From positions 1 through 35,803 of IMG/VR virus record IMGVR_UViG_3300027976_001356: a stretch of DNA of 35,803 nucleotides; one strand, 5' to 3'. Source of the stretch: a virus. How positions within the stretch are numbered: position 1 is the first letter of the stretch; each line of letters begins with the position of its first letter. A program made the position numbers and the translations under genes. The notes below the pieces were generated by a model. That model searched no databases. It saw only the letters and a program-made list of their open reading frames with translations, and was not told the origin of the DNA. Of this stretch, positions 27,429 to 35,803 are shown in pieces.

Positions 27429-28250
27429 ATGAATTACTATGATGTTTTGGGAGTGCCCAAAACAGCCTCCCCAGAAGATATAAAACGAGCATATCGTAAA
27501 CTTGCTAGTCAGCACCATCCTGACAAAGGTGGTGACACGGCTAAATTTCAGCAGGTAGAAGAAGCATATAGAATGTTAAGCGACCCTGCTAAAAAATCTG
27601 AATACGACAATCCTAATCCGTTTGGACAACCTCAAAGTAATTGGAGTCAATCAGGGGGCGGTCCATTTGATCAGTTTTTTCATCAATTTGGTCCGGATCT
27701 AGGATCATTATTCGGAGCAAGAAGAGGCGCTCCAAAAAATCGTAACATAAATTTATCAACAGATATTACATTAGAAGAAGCATTTTTTGGAAAAGATGTG
27801 GTTGCACAATACAATATATTCAATGGTCATCGTAGAACTTTCGAAGCAAGAATCCCGCCAGGTGTTGAAGGCGGCAATACATTAAGGGTGCCGGGTGCAG
27901 GAGATCACTCTGTACCACAATTGCCGCCTGGAGATGCGTTATTGGCTATCAATATTATTCCCCATGCTAGATTTAATCGATCAGGAGCAGACCTTGCAGA
28001 AGAATTAGAAATATCCGTTTGGGAAGCAATGTTAGGATGCGAAAAGGATATCCGAACTATAGATAATAGAGTAGTTACTATTAAAATAAAAGAAGGCACA
28101 CAACCAAATACTACAATGAGACTACAAGGATACGGAATGGTTATTATAAATTCTCATTCGAGAGGCAATCATTTAATTAATGTTAAAGTTAAAATTCCAA
28201 ACGGACTAACTGAATATCAAAAAAATACCATTAAATCATTTTTATCTTAA
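27429..28250 (+). CDS. J-domain co-chaperone (CbpA/DnaJ type II)
   Basis: A 273-aa J-protein. Residues 3-60 form the J domain ([27 protein letters not shown]) with the HPD tripeptide at 30-32 that stimulates DnaK ATPase. Residues 62-105 are a Gly/Phe-rich linker. There is no Cys-rich zinc domain, so it is the CbpA-like type II form. Residues about 106-273 carry the two C-terminal beta-sandwich domains ([38 protein letters not shown]). It should recruit host DnaK, as no phage DnaK is seen here. Its ATG is preceded by a consensus promoter with no room for a ribosome site, suggesting leaderless translation. It sits with deformylase and ClpA-like genes in a proteostasis group. Confidence 0.92.
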
Positions 28251-28258
28251 ATATCAAT

Positions 28259-28762
28259 ATGTTAAAAGTTATAACTAATCCAGACCCTATATTAAAAGAA
28301 TGTATGCCTGCGTTCGATTTTGAAAATCCCGTAATAGACCCGAGAGAACTAGAAAGGCAAATGCTAGAAATTATGTTTGCCAATGATGCATTAGGGCTAT
28401 CCGCTAATCAAGTCGGTGTTAAAACTCGAATGTTTGTTATGGGAGATAAACGTAATTTCTTAATGGCAAAAGCATACTTCAATCCTAAAATTGTTGCAAA
28501 TACAACAGATATGCATGATTTGGAGGAAGGATGTTTGAGTTTTCCAGGAATATATGTTAAAATTAAACGTCCAAGTTCGATTAAAGTAGAATATCAAAAC
28601 TCAAAAGGTGAAACTGAAACTGCAGAATTTAGAGGGTATGATTGTAAATGTTTTTTACACGAATACGATCACTTAGAAGGTATAACGTTTCAAGATAGAG
28701 TTAGCCAACTTAAATGGGCACTAGCAATTAAAAAAAGTAAATCAAAAAGGAAATACAAATAA
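28259..28762 (+). CDS. def: Peptide deformylase
   Basis: A 167-aa metalloenzyme that removes the formyl group from new proteins. All three motifs are present: ALGLSANQ (residues 44-51; the first Gly of the usual G-x-G-L-A-A-x-Q is Ala), EEGCLSFPG (metal ligand Cys92) and FLHEYDHLEG (His134, Glu135, His138). The length is typical of bacterial and phage deformylases, with a short Lys-rich tail. No ribosome site is visible before the ATG; the gene starts eight bases after the J-protein stop, so it may be translated by coupling. Phage deformylases are known in marine phages and thought to raise maturation capacity late in infection. Its stop overlaps the ClpA-like start (TAATG). Confidence 0.95.
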   Translation: MLKVITNPDPILKECMPAFDFENPVIDPRELERQMLEIMFANDALGLSANQVGVKTRMFVMGDKRNFLMAKAYFNPKIVANTTDMHDLEEGCLSFPGIYVKIKRPSSIKVEYQNSKGETETAEFRGYDCKCFLHEYDHLEGITFQDRVSQLKWALAIKKSKSKRKYK

Positions 28763-31026
28763 TGATCGAACCAAATGACGACTTAGGGAAAATTTTTGAA
28801 CAGGCAGTAAATATTGCTGCTCAACATAAACACGAATATATTACATTAGAACATTTTCTTTATAGTCTAGTGTTAGACGAAAAATTCAATAGTTTGCTTA
28901 AAGAATTTGGGTCAGAAGTTAATCAACTCAAAAAGAATTTAGAAAGATATATCGATCAAGAATTAGATAATATTAAAAGTACCAAAGCCAACTGTATTCC
29001 TAAAAAAACAAATACAGTTGAACGAATGCTTAATCGTGCGTTTACTCAAACGCTGTTTAGCGGTCGCAGCGTAATTGAACCGTTGGACTGTTTTATAAGT
29101 ATCTTTAGTGAAAAGAAAAGTTTTGCGCATTACTTCATGCGCAAGGCAAAAATTGATAAAGATAAGTTCCTTGAATTTTTGCAAAATATCGAAGATGCAG
29201 AAGATGGTGTTGAAAGTGCTGTGTCCGGTCAAACTGAACGCATAATAGTTCAATTTTGTACAAACATTACAAATCGAGTAAAGCAAAAAAGAATTGACCC
29301 TGTAATTGGGCGTGACAAAGAAATTGAAGAAATACAACTTGCCCTTGCCCGGCGACAAAAATCAAATGTTATTTTAATCGGTGATCCTGGTGTAGGTAAG
29401 ACAGCAATTGCAGAAGGCCTTGCACGTAAAATTGTAGAAGGCAAAGTTCCTAAATTTATTCAAGATCATGTTGTTTACAGTTTAGATATTACTGGAATGC
29501 TTGCTGGATCTAAGTATCGTGGTGATTTTGAAGAACGCCTAAAAGGTGTAATATCTGCCCTAGAAAAGAAAAAGAATGCTATTTTGTTTATTGACGAAGC
29601 ACATATGATGAACGGTGCAGGGTCAGCAGGTAGTGGCAGCAATGATATGGCCAATATGTTGAAACCAGCATTGGGCAAAGGTATACTTAAAGTTATTGCT
29701 TCTACTACCTGGGAAGAATTCCGTAAACACTTTGAAAAAGATCGTGCTTTAATGCGTCGATTCCAGCGTGTAGTCGTAAATGAGCCGAACGAATTAACTG
29801 CTATTAAGATCATCAAAGGTCTTAAAAAGTACTACGAACAACATCATGGTGTTAAGATTACCAATCAAGCAGTTATTGATAGTGTAAAATATTCTATTAA
29901 GTATATGACTGATAAGAAGTTACCTGACAAGGCAATTGATTTGATTGATTGTGCGTGTGCTCGTTTTAAAGTACGTGATCAAGAAGAGGGCATTGTTGAT
30001 CATGACGAGATTGTGTTCGAAGTTAGTAAATTAACTGGATTGCCTTTAGATCAAATTGCACAGAAAGAAAACAAAAACCTTAAAGATCTTGATAAAAATA
30101 TGCGCAGCAAGGTCTTTGGTCAAGAAAAAGCCATTGACATTTTGTTAGATAAAATTTTTATTGCACAAGCAGGATTGAAGAGTCTTAATAAACCAGTAGG
30201 CAGTTTCTTACTTACAGGTCCGACTGGTGTTGGTAAAACTGAAACTGCAAAGGTGTTAGCGGAAAGTATGGGAGTCGAACTTGTAAGATTTGACATGAGC
30301 GAGTATCAGGAAAAGCATACTGTTGCTAAACTTATTGGTGCTCCTCCTGGATATGTAGGTTACGACGACAATTCCGGACTGCTGATTACAAAACTGCAAG
30401 AACATCCAAATGCTATTCTGCTGTTTGACGAGATAGAAAAAGCACACCCTGATGTTGCTAACATTTTGTTGCAATTAATGGACAATGGTCATGTAACTGG
30501 TAGTAATGGTAAAATAGCAGACGGTCGCAATGCTATCTTAATGCTAACAAGCAATTTAGGATCGTCAGACAACGAACGTAATGCAGTAGGTTTCGGCAAT
30601 TTAGAGCGTGGCGACGAAACTGATGGTGCTATTAATAATTTCTTTAAACCAGAGTTCCGTAATCGGTTAGATGGTATTATCAAATTCGGCAAGTTAGATC
30701 ATGTTACTATGGCCAAAATTGTTAAAAAGTTTATTGACGAACTCAATTCATTGTTGAAAGATAAAAATGTTGCAGTTAAACTTGATGTAGAAACAGCAGA
30801 GTTTTTGATCAAGAAAGGGTTTAATCGCAAAATGGGTGCTCGTCCGTTGCAACGTACAATTGACGAAAAGATTAAGAAACCATTAAGTAAAGAAATCTTA
30901 TTTGGACGGTTAGTTAATGGCGGAATTGTTTCTGTAACAGTAGTCAATAACAGTATTGTTCTTACCTATCCTGAAATACTTCCAGTAGTAGAAGAAAAAG
31001 ATGAAACAGAACAAGCAGAAAATTAA
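28762..31026 (+). CDS. clpA: ClpA-like AAA+ unfoldase
   Basis: A 754-aa double-ring ATPase of the Clp/Hsp100 family. Residues 5-145 form a Clp N-domain. AAA module 1 has Walker A GDPGVGKT (207-214) and Walker B ILFIDEAH (274-281). Module 2 has GPTGVGKT (486-493), the pore loop GYVGYDD (530-536), Walker B LLFDEIEK (553-560) and the C-terminal KMGARPLQR sensor. The coiled-coil middle domain of ClpB is absent, so it is ClpA-type. Where ClpA has its I-G-L/F ClpP-docking loop, this protein has VGF (609-611). It may feed substrates to host ClpP or act alone. The start overlaps the deformylase stop by one base. The next gene overlaps its end by 26 bases. Confidence 0.92.
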
Positions 31027-31720
31027 TAAACTATTTTACAACAAATGGGCTTATAAAATTTGTTGTAAAATACAAGGAGCAAGTCAGATTAAGTACTATG
31101 GTGCCACTCGTATTAGATTGTGGACAGCATTAGATTACGAACTATTTTTTGAAGACTCATTAAGGTACAGCTGGAACAATCGCACTAATTTTAAAATTTC
31201 AATTGATAAAGTCGATGTAGCAAAGTTTGTCGATGCTGTTGAACCTTTTATGGAAATGAAAGAAGATGTACAAATTAGAGTAGAAGGAAGTTCTTTTAAT
31301 TTATTTTGTAAAGATTTAGATCTTAAAAATCAAATTGAACAGGCACTGTATCCTTGGGTTGTAGAAACAGTCGGTCCGGATTCAGAAGAAGAACTTAAAT
31401 TTATACTGGAAAACAAATACAAAATAATATGCAACAAACTACCATACGAAAAATTTAAATTTAAAGTTGTATTTAAAGATTGGATTAAAAATCCTGCTAC
31501 TAAAGAAAAATTACACAGTTATATTTTAAAATTAAATCCTGAAGATATTAAAATTAGTCCTACTACAAAAAAGTGGTTAGAAGGTCGATTATCGTATCAA
31601 CAAGAGCCGTTCCTGTATCTAGTAGATGCAAAACATCTAGTTTTTATGAGATTGATATCTACAGATATTAAAAGAGTATATGAATATGTAGAACAAGATA
31701 ATATAAATACTAGTTTATAG
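31001..31720 (+). CDS. Unknown Lys-rich alpha/beta protein
   Basis: A 239-aa protein overlapping the ClpA-like gene by 26 bases, with an AGAAGAAAAAG ribosome region upstream. N-terminal residues 10-40 are basic and aromatic (KLFYNKWAYKICCKIQGASQ), and the rest alternates helices and strands (YPWVVETVGPDSEEELKFIL, FKFKVVFKDWIKNPATKEKL). No catalytic motif is apparent and I do not recognise the family. Being last in the proteostasis group, it might be co-expressed with the ClpA-like protein as an adaptor, which is only a guess. Its final codons contain a perfect late-promoter octamer for the next gene, so the two belong to different transcription programmes. Confidence 0.6.
   Translation: MKQNKQKINKLFYNKWAYKICCKIQGASQIKYYGATRIRLWTALDYELFFEDSLRYSWNNRTNFKISIDKVDVAKFVDAVEPFMEMKEDVQIRVEGSSFNLFCKDLDLKNQIEQALYPWVVETVGPDSEEELKFILENKYKIICNKLPYEKFKFKVVFKDWIKNPATKEKLHSYILKLNPEDIKISPTTKKWLEGRLSYQQEPFLYLVDAKHLVFMRLISTDIKRVYEYVEQDNINTSL
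31702..31709 (+). promoter_or_regulatory. Perfect T4-type late promoter (TATAAATA)
   Basis: The octamer TATAAATA at 31702-31709 is identical to the T4 late consensus and ends 18 nt before the ATG at 31728. It is embedded in the last codons of the previous gene. It would turn on the 31728 gene and possibly the genes to the window's end at the time heads are assembled. Confidence 0.75.
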
Positions 31721-31727
31721 TAATATT

Positions 31728-32186
31728 ATGCCATCACTAAGTAAGAGTTTAAAATTTCAAGTTGAGACCGGACTTACATCTACCGGTACTAGCGTAGCAG
31801 TAGCATATCCTATTTGGTATAGTGTACAAACTACTACTACACAATATGTAACTAGTTTCCCTGACCAAGGTGCAGGTTATTACGGAACGACTAACGGATT
31901 ACACTCTCTTACTGTAAATACTAGCCCTAATTTCTTAGGAACTGCTACAATTCAAGCATCATTAGCAACTGCTCCAACAGAATCTGATTGGTTTGATGTT
32001 GTTGACGGGAAATTTGAGTACACTACCACAAGTACCGGATATATTCCATCATTGATAATAGATCTAAACCCTGCTACGCCAGATACTCGTACAAGGTATC
32101 TTAATTTTACTGGTCAATTTACTTGGATTAGATCGCAAGTACAAGTAGATCAAGGTGCATTAACTAGCATCAAGTATAATTATTAA
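31728..32186 (+). CDS. Small beta-rich virion-type protein
   Basis: A 152-aa, Ser/Thr/Tyr-rich, beta-strand protein without lysine-rich or membrane segments (KFQVETGLTSTGTSVAVAYP, NFLGTATIQASLATAPTESD, YLNFTGQFTWIRSQVQVDQG). The composition resembles tail or head decoration proteins, and the perfect late-promoter octamer just upstream fits a virion component. The alternation and the WIRSQVQV strand recall jelly-roll or Ig-like decorations; the fold is not certain. It is followed by a hairpin at 32202-32225. No homologue identified by eye. Confidence 0.62.
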   Translation: MPSLSKSLKFQVETGLTSTGTSVAVAYPIWYSVQTTTTQYVTSFPDQGAGYYGTTNGLHSLTVNTSPNFLGTATIQASLATAPTESDWFDVVDGKFEYTTTSTGYIPSLIIDLNPATPDTRTRYLNFTGQFTWIRSQVQVDQGALTSIKYNY

Positions 32187-32260: not shown

Positions 32261-32632
32261 ATGCTTTTGAATGAATTTTTTGGCTCGTATAACTTTAAAA
32301 CAAGTAACGATAAGCACAACAAAGATGCTGAAATGAAAGAGGCTGATCTAGTTTCTGAAATTTTTGAATACATCATCAATAACGACGATCTACACAAAGA
32401 GGATTTTCTACCTGTTGCCGAGCAAATGGCAAGAACAGCAACAAAAGAGCAAAAATCCGACCTTTGGATGCCTATGGCAAATAAAGGATGTCTTAAATTT
32501 TACAAAGAAAACAAAATGAAGGAAGATCCTAAAAAGATTTTTACAATAGAAATGCGTAAAGAATTATGCAATAAGTTAGCGGAGCATTACCAAGGTGATA
32601 TTCTCAAGGGTATCTACAATCTAGGAAAATAA
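32261..32632 (+). CDS. Unknown helical protein with MLLNE start
   Basis: A 123-aa, mostly helical protein preceded by AAGGA. It opens MLLNEFFGSYNF, sharing MLLNE with the following gene and MLLN with the gene at 34489. Residues 25-75 and 95-123 are helices rich in Lys and Glu (SEIFEYIINNDDLHKEDFLP, EMRKELCNKLAEHYQGDILK). The E-F after LNE is a poor fit to the prohead-protease consensus, so it is the weakest of the four genes for a capsid-targeting leader. No family recognised. It starts the last gene block and ends one base before the next start. Confidence 0.62.
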   Translation: MLLNEFFGSYNFKTSNDKHNKDAEMKEADLVSEIFEYIINNDDLHKEDFLPVAEQMARTATKEQKSDLWMPMANKGCLKFYKENKMKEDPKKIFTIEMRKELCNKLAEHYQGDILKGIYNLGK

Positions 32633-32633
32633 T

Positions 32634-33353
32634 ATGTTATTAAACGAAGGCGGCAATGTTGTTCCTGGTGCAGTTGAAATGCGCAAAATGGATTTTCCAT
32701 TAGTAATGGCAAACTTGAAAAAGTTTTTGCCTAAAGGCATTAACCTTTACCCTATTGGTTCAGCGGGTCATAAAGAAGTAAGCAGCGATATTGACGCATT
32801 AATTGATGCAAAAGAACTAATGACTGCATTCCCTGCTAAAGAACTAAAACTAAGCCGTAAAGCACTAGAAGATTTTTTTAAAGAAAAAGGACTATTTGCT
32901 GCCCGTACTGGAGTTAGTGTACATGTGGGTGTGCCCATTGGAGATACTGACAAATTAGTTCAAGTAGACTTAATGGCTGTAGATAATGCTGCGGCTGCAC
33001 AACCTTTGCATACACATGATTATACTGATTCTGGCATGAAGGGCGGAACATTGCACGGTATGTGGGCAGATCTTGCCAATATGAGTTCTGTAGAAGGACA
33101 CAAAAGTGTTATGATGAGTCCTTACAAAGGTCTTGTTGACAGGGCAACTAAAGAACTTGTCACTAATAACAAAGATGAGATTGCAAAAATCATCATCGGT
33201 CCTACTGCAACTGCTGCTGACATGGGCAATCCACAACGAGTATTAGTAGCACTAAAACAATATCCTGACAAGTATCAAACAATTAAAGACAAGTATTTTC
33301 CTACTGAAGGAACTAGAGACTGGTTTAGAACTTTATTGGATCGTGTAGCATGA
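32634..33353 (+). CDS. Pol-beta-superfamily nucleotidyltransferase-like protein
   Basis: A 239-aa protein carrying the minimal nucleotidyltransferase signature: YPIGSAGHKEVSSDIDALID (residues 39-58), with Gly42-Ser43 and the metal-binding D-x-D at Asp52/Asp54, and a probable third carboxylate in VQVDLMAVD (Asp112). Such folds include poly(A) and CCA polymerases, aminoglycoside nucleotidyltransferases and toxin-antitoxin NTases. The usual short G-S-x-x-x-x-D spacing is stretched here by a few residues. The substrate is not readable. An AGGA ribosome site precedes the ATG. The leader MLLNE-G fits an L-x-E/G cleavage site like those of T4 head proteins. The stop overlaps the next start (ATGA). 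Confidence 0.75.
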   Translation: MLLNEGGNVVPGAVEMRKMDFPLVMANLKKFLPKGINLYPIGSAGHKEVSSDIDALIDAKELMTAFPAKELKLSRKALEDFFKEKGLFAARTGVSVHVGVPIGDTDKLVQVDLMAVDNAAAAQPLHTHDYTDSGMKGGTLHGMWADLANMSSVEGHKSVMMSPYKGLVDRATKELVTNNKDEIAKIIIGPTATAADMGNPQRVLVALKQYPDKYQTIKDKYFPTEGTRDWFRTLLDRVA

Positions 33354-34489
33354 AGATAACTGAAATTTTAGTCGAAGCCTCCGTTCCTACAGTAGGACGC
33401 AAGTATCAGCATATTGAAGACTTAGTGTTTACCAATGGTAGTAACGGTGGAGTGCATGCTGTCGAGCGCTTGCGCAGTATGTCTTCACAGGGCGGTACTA
33501 TTGAATTAAAGTGGGATGGTAGTCCTGTTGTTTATTGGGGCAAGGATGAGCAGGGTCGATTTAGTATGATTCCTAAAAATGCCTGGGAATATCTAAAGCG
33601 TGGCAAAACTGAACTAGACAACGGTGTTCCTACTGTTATGTACAGCCCGGAAGATTTAAAAAACTTTATTGCAGGTACAGGTAAAGTAGAACCGGGTAAA
33701 GAAAAAATGCGTCAAGCATATGCAAATAGCATGGCCCAGTTGTGGAATTACTTTGAACAGGCAAGTCCTCCAAGAGGTTATGTAGAAGGCGGTATTCTTT
33801 TTAGTCCAGAAAAACCTGCCAAACTAAATCCCGAAACTGGCGACTATGATTTTACTCCTAACATTACCAGTTTTCATATTCCCGCAACTAGCGATTTGGG
33901 ACAAAGAATTGCAGGAGCAGATGTAATGGTTGCAGTCACTGGATACTTTGCCAAGTTAGGTAGCAGTGATGAAACAAGATTTCCCAATGCTGAAAAACTT
34001 TCAACAAAAGATGTTATTGTACAAGGTACAACATATGTTGAACAAGCACCAGATGTAGATAGCAAATTGCTAGATCAAGCAGAAGCATATATCGATAAAA
34101 ATGCAGGACTGATTGATGGATTCTTAGCACCTAAGCCAGGATTGAGCAAACCGGGCGATATTCTTTACAAATTTTATAATCAAAATTTAAGGCTGGCAGG
34201 AGTTAAAGAAAAATTCAAAGACTGGGCTGCACAAAATCTAAGTGCAGGGCAATCTGGTAAAGTACTAGCAGATCCCGGATTAGATGCAGTATTGACCGCA
34301 GTAGAATTATTGACAAAGGCCAAGATGGATATTATCAATAAGTTAAGTGCAGGAACACACAGCGGAATTAAACAAACAAAACCAGAAGGATATGTACAAG
34401 CACATCCAGGCGGTAAATTTAAAAGAGACTTGCCAGGACAATTTGTTAAAGCAATTGATCAAGGCAACTGGGCACCAAGGAAAGACTAA
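33350..34489 (+). CDS. Ligase-like protein with KWDG motif (possible polynucleotide ligase relative)
   Basis: A 379-aa protein. ELKWDGSPVVYWG contains K-x-DG (Lys54, Asp56, Gly57), the signature of covalent nucleotidyltransferases (DNA/RNA ligases and capping enzymes), in which Lys is adenylylated. GYVEGGILF (143-151) could be a later motif (E-G-x-hydrophobic) of that superfamily, but the final K-x-K motif is not clear. It resembles a family of T4-like phage proteins of uncertain function. Residues 185-379 are alpha/beta with a basic C terminus (HPGGKFKRDLPGQF). The leader MKITEILVE-ASV closely mimics the T4 internal-protein leader, ending in L-V-E then Ala. A proven ligase function cannot be claimed. 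Confidence 0.65.
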   Translation: MKITEILVEASVPTVGRKYQHIEDLVFTNGSNGGVHAVERLRSMSSQGGTIELKWDGSPVVYWGKDEQGRFSMIPKNAWEYLKRGKTELDNGVPTVMYSPEDLKNFIAGTGKVEPGKEKMRQAYANSMAQLWNYFEQASPPRGYVEGGILFSPEKPAKLNPETGDYDFTPNITSFHIPATSDLGQRIAGADVMVAVTGYFAKLGSSDETRFPNAEKLSTKDVIVQGTTYVEQAPDVDSKLLDQAEAYIDKNAGLIDGFLAPKPGLSKPGDILYKFYNQNLRLAGVKEKFKDWAAQNLSAGQSGKVLADPGLDAVLTAVELLTKAKMDIINKLSAGTHSGIKQTKPEGYVQAHPGGKFKRDLPGQFVKAIDQGNWAPRKD

Positions 34490-35803
34490 TGTTATTAAAC
34501 CAATTATTCGAAGCAGTTACAAGAACAGGTAAAGGCAACACAGCCGTAGTAGGTTGGGGTCGTGGCATGGGACACAAAGGACACATGATGTTGGCCAGCA
34601 GTGTTATTACCAAGGCAAAAGAAGCGGGAGGAGATCCTTACTTTGTTGTTAGTCGCACAGTAGGCAAAGATGATCCTATTACTCCGGAAGAAAAACTTGC
34701 GATCTACAAAAAAGTATTTCCAGAACAAGGACATATTTTTCAGGCGGCCAGCGACGAAATTCCAGATTTAACTCGTGTGTTGGCAAACTTAAACAAACAG
34801 GGCTACAAGAATTGTATAGTTGTTGTAGGTGCTGATCAAGTTAAAGCATTTCAGTATTTAAAAAAATACAACGGACACCCGGACAAAGCAGGCAATGTAG
34901 CATTTGAATTTGATAATTTAGATGTAATTAGTCGTCAGGAAACTAGCGATCCTAGTGCAGGCGAAGAAGGACCTCGTGCTACTCCGATGCGTCAAGTGTT
35001 AAATGATCCTAACAAAAGTGACGAAGAACAATTTAGTGTATGGCGTGATGCTATGAGTCCAGAAATTAGTGATAACGAAGTGCGTGATCTAATGAACAAG
35101 GCCAAGACTCGCATGGGTGCATTTGCTAAACCTAAGAAGAAAGGTGTAAGTGAAGGCAAAGTTAAAGATCTCATGATGGATCTTAAAGAACTGTCAGACT
35201 CAGAATTCCAACAGAAATACCACATGAGCAAAGCAGAAGCACGTGAAGGTGTAGCGGAGAGTATGGGCGACAAACGAACTGATCCTGCACCATCTAAAGA
35301 GTTTGTTTCAAATAAATTTTATGTTAAATTTACACCTAATGGTATTGAGTTTACTAGGCGTGGTGAATTAGTTTACACTAAACCTGGAGATTATAGTAAT
35401 CCCACAAGAGGTGATTATAATCTTGCTAAAGGAATTACTACCGAGTTATGGCGAAAAGAACAGCAAGGTGTGGCCGAGGGTGGATTTTTTGATCAAGATC
35501 GACCCAATATTGGTGATGTAGTTAAACATAAACATAGTGGCGCCATGGGTCGAGTCAAAAAGATAGGAACACAAGGTGACACTACTACAGTGTATTTCAA
35601 AGATGCCAAAACAGGCGCAATGAATTATGGTGAATGGAAGAAGCACGTGTTTCCAATTAAAAAGCAAGGTATGGCGGAGGGCTCTGCACAAAATACACCA
35701 CAACAAGCAAAAGTCCGTGCAGCAATAGTAGCGGGTATGAAGTCATCTGATGAGTTTAATGCTGCGAAAGTAGCCGCAGCTGGCGTAGCAAGAGACAAAA
35801 GCG
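34489..35803 (+). CDS. HxGH nucleotidyltransferase with modular linker-repeat tail (3' truncated)
   Basis: A frame of 438 residues open to the window edge, with its ATG overlapping the previous stop (TAATG). Residues 15-200 form an HxGH nucleotidyltransferase: VVGWGRGMGHKGHMMLASSV carries HKGH (29-32), NCIVVVGADQVKAF (108-121) the G-A-D strand, and RATPMRQ (163-169) the T-x-x-R segment, as in NMN adenylyltransferase-type enzymes. After residue 215 the protein is a chain of small modules separated by G-(V/M)-(A/S)-E linkers ending at E222, E257, E330 and E397. The module at 331-397 looks like a small beta-barrel (NIGDVVKHKHSGAMGRVKKI). The leader MLLNQLFE-AVT fits an L-x-E/A cleavage site. It could be a packaged, cleaved internal protein; inference. 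Confidence 0.75.
   Translation, partial: MLLNQLFEAVTRTGKGNTAVVGWGRGMGHKGHMMLASSVITKAKEAGGDPYFVVSRTVGKDDPITPEEKLAIYKKVFPEQGHIFQAASDEIPDLTRVLANLNKQGYKNCIVVVGADQVKAFQYLKKYNGHPDKAGNVAFEFDNLDVISRQETSDPSAGEEGPRATPMRQVLNDPNKSDEEQFSVWRDAMSPEISDNEVRDLMNKAKTRMGAFAKPKKKGVSEGKVKDLMMDLKELSDSEFQQKYHMSKAEAREGVAESMGDKRTDPAPSKEFVSNKFYVKFTPNGIEFTRRGELVYTKPGDYSNPTRGDYNLAKGITTELWRKEQQGVAEGGFFDQDRPNIGDVVKHKHSGAMGRVKKIGTQGDTTTVYFKDAKTGAMNYGEWKKHVFPIKKQGMAEGSAQNTPQQAKVRAAIVAGMKSSDEFNAAKVAAAGVARDKS

Follow-up and report, generated by a model that had tools for sequence, protein, structure and literature searches.

Three consecutive genes with predicted processing leaders

The sequence examined here, referred to as the window, is the 35,803-base IMG/VR virus fragment IMGVR_UViG_3300027976_001356, which ends in three consecutive plus-strand genes whose proteins begin with short leaders resembling those of T4 internal head proteins. 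The first open reading frame (ORF; 32634..33353, starting MLLNE/GGNV, with a slash marking the predicted cut) encodes a pol-beta-type nucleotidyltransferase (NTase) and the second (33350..34489, MKITEILVE/ASVP) a DUF6267 protein with a KWDG motif that resembles ligase motif I. The third (34489..35803, MLLNQLFE/AVTR), still open at the window end, encodes an HxGH cytidylyltransferase domain with at least four small modules, separated by sites that relatives encode with a nearly constant 20-bp element, AGCAAGGTGTGGCGGAAGGC. A preliminary description of this DNA had claimed that all three genes place L-x-E followed by Ala or Gly near the N terminus, and this is what we found, with LNE/G, LVE/A and LFE/A cut after residues 5, 9 and 8 if the prediction is right. 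We propose, at a probability of roughly two in three, that the three genes encode internal head proteins trimmed by a gp21-type prohead protease, that the third is a polyprotein, and that its cassettes are exchanged at the 20-bp element.

By chance, [LI]xE[AG] would fall within the first 14 residues of about 1–2% of genes, and simple arithmetic puts three in a row at a few in a million, or ~1e-4 when allowing for ~40 genes. Comparisons were made with 80 related viral contigs fetched via the cytidylyltransferase domain; the homologs and cassettes come from metagenomic contigs, and the compared pairs are phylogenetically non-independent. Leaders of the same type are found on unrelated cargos, including genes 33, 37, 39, 116 and 141 of G001, a relative of 180,861 bases, and on many proteins that carry the 20-bp element. 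Based on a simple choice of start codon, leader-like N termini are present in 37% of element carriers and in 10% of other proteins.

The third gene as a predicted polyprotein

The leader of the third protein, MLLNQLFE (34489..34512), is predicted to be cut at LFE/A based on the N termini of its homologs, which follow M[LRF]LR[QN][LI]FE[ANTDL] (e.g., MLLRQLFE/A and MRLRQLFE/N). Conservation of the leader appears lower here than in the other two proteins. Its earlier assignment as an HxGH nucleotidyltransferase was borne out by the motif GMGHKGHMM and by a match to the phage cytidylyltransferase family phrog_3041 (E = 2.9e-24). Two internal sites are encoded by copies of the element with 2 mismatches each, where 0 are expected by chance: QGVAE/G at 35464..35480 (GVAE from 35467) and QGMAE/G at 35665..35681 (GMAE from 35668). 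Two further candidate sites lie in diverged copies, namely GVAE/S at 35248..35259, placed by a module split, and GVSE/G at 35143..35154, which opens the first cassette (GVSE/GKVKDL) and is replaced by other Glu-ending sites in front of homologs of that module elsewhere (SINE/GKVKQL and MIKE/GRVKEL). These G[VM][AS]E sites suggest that the third gene encodes a modular polyprotein.

The cytidylyltransferase domain also matches the cyanophage family T4-GC190. In purified virions of S-SM1, Sullivan et al. (2010; PMC3037559) found both T4-GC190 and gp21 by mass spectrometry. The S-SM1 gene starts MKKFSAFLNE/AERSF, and the homologs of DSL-LC02 and Methylophilales phage Melnitz start MKRFLQFLSE/A and MKKFSEIIE/A, respectively.

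A 20-bp in-frame element at cassette boundaries

Exact copies of AGCAAGGTGTGGCGGAAGGC are present in at least 120 stretches in IMG/VR, and a search of cultured phages for the element found none. Among the distinct element contexts in the studied loci (at most 4 mismatches to the 20-mer, with carriers partly collected by means of the element itself), 388 of 393 lie in ORFs, in sense orientation, and in the single frame that reads (Q/K/E)G(V/M)AE. The element is written with GTG and GCG, which make up only 8–13% and 4–6% of their synonymous sets in these phages, and keeping such rare codons implies that the DNA sequence itself is conserved. Homology between proteins breaks off abruptly at this point. 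With identical contexts collapsed, 5 of the 103 site pairs homologous on the left were also homologous on the right, and the converse held for 5 of 99, while at control positions 90–120 nt off the element homology persists in most pairs (e.g., 63 of 68). Without collapsing, and excluding pairs identical on both sides, there were 166 pairs homologous on the left only, 203 on the right only and 26 on both, and mean identity drops from about 0.88 to 0.28 at the element. Grouping the modules by strict mutual coverage (blast clustering gave a single chained cluster of 241 and was replaced) recovered modules of equal length (67, 58, 53, 56 and 160 residues) in different proteins with different neighbours. 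As far as these comparisons indicate, the element is the boundary of shuffled cassettes.

The modules are mostly 50–130 residues long and unannotated. Thirteen of the 19 carriers scanned had no Pfam match at all, and the matches among cassettes were limited to DUF6321, GNAT, M48 and the twin-arginine (Tat) signal. DUF6321 recurs in the cassette proteins L227, L162, L218, L196, L199 and L148, and a KWSxKYK segment preceded by LDE, IEE or LKE is likewise recurrent.

Several other origins of the 20-mer were considered and rejected. Its near-constant frame, sense orientation and placement in ORFs, together with the retention of Glu in variants, do not fit an adapter or assembly artefact, and a Chi-like or packaging signal would not be limited to a single reading frame within a single class of genes. 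Chance was set aside as the reversed pattern gave 0 matches in 19 records, and a host or cellular origin because exact matches in 257 Gb of bacterial and archaeal genomes numbered 3, near the chance level. A conserved RNA fold was rejected on the unconserved flanks, a judgement made from the flanks with no explicit folding. Among the papers searched, the one that contains GVAEG concerns HLA-E and not phages.

Is the junction cut?

The codon conservation and the break in homology at the element are both what would be seen if it were purely a DNA recombination patch, that is, a molecular linker for domain shuffling in which GVAEG forms a flexible linker that stays uncut. We consider this explanation unlikely, as the amino acids are not constrained evenly. 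In variant elements the dN/dS-like ratio (nonsynonymous to synonymous change, relative to expectation) is 0.07 for Glu at P1, the residue before the predicted cut, 0.35 for Val at P3, 0.39 for P1′, 0.64 for Ala and 0.89 for the Gly at P4, and the changes at Val are mostly to Met or Ile. Constraint is thus strongest on Glu, high on Val/Met and absent on the Gly before Val, a pattern that appears to be that of PhixE specificity (Phi, a hydrophobic residue) and favours processing. PhixE also stands at the boundary where the DNA element is missing: among 167 homologs of module starts that differ from the 20-mer at 12 or more of its 20 positions, 30 have it exactly at the boundary versus 1–5 at shifted positions.

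The placement of Tat-type signals also speaks against an uncut linker. Six carriers (L227, L172, L187, L196, L199 and L148) have RRGFLK followed by a hydrophobic Ala/Gly-rich stretch directly after a site, and in L196 an M48 metallopeptidase domain follows. Twin-arginine export signals normally work at the N terminus. Since the RR pair lies 3–7 residues after the QGVAE site, these signals would become N-terminal only after cutting, which favours a processing site. The constraint pattern, the PhixE at boundaries and the Tat placement are the three results that speak for a site of processing and not simply a linker.

Conservation of the leaders in the first two proteins

In the NTase, the leader MLLNE (32634..32648) and the predicted cut LNE/GGN are supported by homolog conservation and predicted disorder. 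Residues E5, G6, G7 and N8 are invariant across 10 homologs with identity down to 30%, and xE/GGN is kept behind leaders that range from 5 to 24 residues. The AlphaFold2 model has a predicted local distance difference test (pLDDT) score of 88, with residues 1–5, the leader, as the sole segment below 50. The claim of a pol-beta-type fold held up well: the GS...DxD motif is present, with D52, D54 and D112 invariant and G42 and S43 nearly so, and Foldseek matched the model to pol lambda, mu and beta (E about 5e-6).

The second protein (Pfam DUF6267, E = 8e-16) has the leader MKITEILVE (33350..33376) and the predicted cut LVE/A, supported again by PhixE conservation and by predicted disorder (residues 1–18 below pLDDT 50). 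All 41 distinct DUF6267 homologs have [LIVFM]xE directly before the GRKYQH start of the domain, with Ala at P1′ in 37 of them. Of these homologs, 17 stand alone and have leaders like MKIRELIIE/A, MRAREFLFE/A, MKIQELLQE/A and MRLRQLFE/A. The other 24 are fused behind the NTase, where the junctions read INE/A, LLE/A, VNE/A, LQE/A or FFE/A within otherwise dissimilar linkers. PhixE is thus kept at internal fusion junctions, and neither the start codon nor N-terminal folding can account for such an internal copy. The preliminary description had also called this protein ligase-like; its KWDG motif is invariant among homologs (K54, W55, D56 and G57), and the fold comparison gave less, with a weak best ligase match to AsfvLIG (E = 0.05, prob 0.72).

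These observations bear on a second alternative, in which the N-terminal xE/A or xE/G is part of a folded domain or of the translation-start context and is kept for structure instead of processing. The invariant EGGN of the NTase family would agree with this. We find it quite improbable, given that the leaders are predicted to be disordered, that they vary in sequence and length while PhixE stays, that the DUF6267 site persists inside fusions, and that the motif is common to the capsid protein discussed below. The description of the leaders as T4-like sites fared well by the same evidence, with PhixE and a following small residue conserved in homologs and retained at fusion junctions.

The NTase and DUF6267 proteins are fused into a ~620-residue protein in L038, L044, L063 and about 20 further loci, and in such loci the leader of the downstream cytidylyltransferase is often altered, to MLLREFLNRTG or MRLRQLFELDRTG. 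In cyanophage S-SM1, a KWDG gene (SSM1_189, T4-GC71; HLEHLED...KWDG, DUF6267-like by eye) adjoins the cytidylyltransferase gene SSM1_190, suggesting the pair is old in T4-like phages.

Prohead protease and capsid maturation site

The preliminary description had proposed looking in the rest of the genome for a gp21-like protease. The window fragment itself gave none, and the related records did: Peptidase_S77, the gp21 family, is present in all four large relatives (E ≤ 3.5e-26) and in five further records with the cassette element. Of the 19 records, exactly these nine contain the major capsid gene, so that every related record with a capsid gene also has the protease, and the protease gene adjoins the capsid gene. 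The G001 protease (G001 114410-115045) matches the solved structure of the T4 prohead protease (5jbl), and the G001 capsid protein shares 67–72% identity with its counterparts in Pseudomonas PA5oct-like phages and Sinorhizobium phage Phosso. G002 (399,796 bases, jumbo-sized as assembled) belongs to the same lineage and has gp21, the capsid gene and the cassette element.

The capsid proteins contain LxE/[STN]A[ST]AGATSAGN or a close variant, a few residues from the aligned mature N terminus of T4 gp23. Thirty-eight ORFs other than the capsid gene also contain an E/[ST]A[ST]AGATSAGN-type sequence, in most cases at the leader (e.g., MRLRELFE/TASAGATSAGN and HYVLE/TATSGATSAG). Having the capsid-type site at the leaders of unrelated ORFs ties the leaders to capsid maturation. 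Leader-bearing proteins of 60–90 residues with the capsid post-cleavage TASAGATSAGN were observed as gene 39 of G001 and in L096, L038, L016 and L146. A review (PMC9026906) covers both the L/I-x-E specificity of T4 gp21 and the targeting function of the 10-residue leader. That some other protease (host Clp or Lon, or another phage protease) cuts these proteins in the infected cell, with the products acting in the same infection, is very improbable despite the ClpB/ClpA-type ATPase gene close to the cluster (28762-31026), as PhixE before a small residue is the specificity of gp21 (PMC9026906) and agrees with the maturation site on the capsid protein of these phages, and as a cytidylyltransferase homolog is present in virions (PMC3037559).

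Proposed explanation

In our proposal, the phage is a T4-like myovirus and the products of the three genes are internal head proteins, each beginning with a short leader for capsid targeting and processing that a gp21-type prohead protease would remove after PhixE. The third protein would consist of a cytidylyltransferase and a series of small cassettes, and the same protease would cut at the G[VM][AS]E sites that divide them. Within the wider phage population, the 20-bp in-frame element would serve as the exchange point of modules, probably via homologous recombination, a mechanism that we infer. Because the element also encodes the cutting site, each newly joined module would bring its own processing signal. 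Once packaged and trimmed, the pieces would leave the head with the DNA and enter the next host, where the three enzymes may act as a modification kit, the role given to them in the preliminary description.

Several points weigh against this explanation. Genome-wide enrichment of the bare motif is mild or nil: G001 has an [LI]xE[AG] leader in 6 of 196 genes, against 3.4 expected from internal windows and 2.3 from shuffling, and G002 in 6 of 462 genes versus 7.4 expected. The motif alone is therefore insufficient, and it is conservation across homologs that carries the claim. Several cytidylyltransferase homologs are without the Glu (MLLREFLNRTG) or have Leu after it, the P3 Val of QGVAEG differs from the L/I of T4, and the 35.8-kb window fragment has no gp21. 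Conservation of the element as DNA could by itself be the result of recombination, with no cutting involved, and it is from sequence that we infer cleavage, packaging and ejection in this lineage.

A wider version of the proposal is evenly poised in our judgement. It holds that the phage population shares an in-frame cassette pool in which the 20-bp junction is both recombination seam and prohead-protease cut, so that a polyprotein loaded into the capsid would release separate injected effectors, some with Tat signals, as a combinatorial arsenal.

Gene neighbourhood and late promoter

A perfect T4-type late promoter octamer, TATAAATA, was claimed upstream of the cluster and is indeed found at 31702..31709 on the plus strand, 26 bp upstream of the ORF at 31728. 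It is the single copy in the whole window, against 4.86 expected by chance, and roughly half to two thirds of the copies in relatives are located 9–102 bp upstream of gene starts. The first gene after the promoter (31728..32186, plus strand) encodes a small virion-type protein that matches phrog_13657 (E = 2.5e-15) and phrog_14467, a virion structural protein (E = 7e-4). It is followed in the cluster by a small plus-strand ORF (32261..32632) with no match in Pfam or PHROG; this ORF starts MLLNEFFG, its homologs begin MKLLEFFNKP, and the cleavage-like site is not kept. Further upstream, DnaJ-like, peptide deformylase and ClpA/ClpB-type ATPase genes are consecutive at 27429-31026. The order DnaJ, peptide deformylase, Clp ATPase, small genes, NTase, DUF6267 and cytidylyltransferase is identical in the window and in G001, where it spans genes 26–34.

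Comparison with known systems

T4-like phages inject a handful of small proteins carried inside the head, and how such an injected arsenal is renewed is poorly known. In T4, IPI–IPIII and Alt carry a ~10-residue L/I-x-E leader that is cut by gp21, and they are packaged, ejected and act in the next host (PMC9026906). The proteins described here are alike in having an N-terminal leader that ends in L/I-x-E and is conserved while the cargo varies. They differ in that the cargo consists of nucleotidyltransferases and modular polyproteins, with predicted cut sites also between modules. T4-GC190 of S-SM1 and S-PM2 is a homolog of the domain at 34489, has the leader MKKFSAFLNE/A in S-SM1 and was detected in virions by mass spectrometry (PMC3037559), whereas a search of cultured phages did not turn up the 20-bp cassette element. 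The ejection proteins of phiKZ and SPN3US are likewise packaged in large number and cut after Glu by a gp21 homolog, although after S/A-x-E, which is another specificity (PMC9026906, PMC10052503).

For exchange at a conserved motif, the closest likeness is in the T-even gp38 adhesins, in which recombination occurs at conserved motifs (Tetart 1998, as cited in PMC12529663), so that in T4-like phages the DNA coding for a conserved motif is where protein segments are swapped in frame. Those motifs belong to one gene family at the tail-fibre tip, are structural and not protease sites, and, unlike the element here, are not a single 20-bp sequence common to hundreds of unrelated modules. Polyvalent proteins are a further likeness: PMC5512222 describes them as large, multidomain and found in both phages and plasmids, with a proposed role in intergenomic conflict. 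Integron-like cassette systems have a dedicated recombinase and a structured recombination site; the element here lies inside ORFs, is translated and has unconserved flanks. To our knowledge, no DNA element is shared by the cut sites of phiKZ or SPN3US, and we know of no common element by which polyvalent proteins are joined.

If our proposal is true, a large group of freshwater phages would build its injected arsenal combinatorially, using one short DNA seam that carries a protease cut. This would account for a large pool of unannotated phage proteins, and it would allow injected effectors to be predicted from genomes by a sequence rule.

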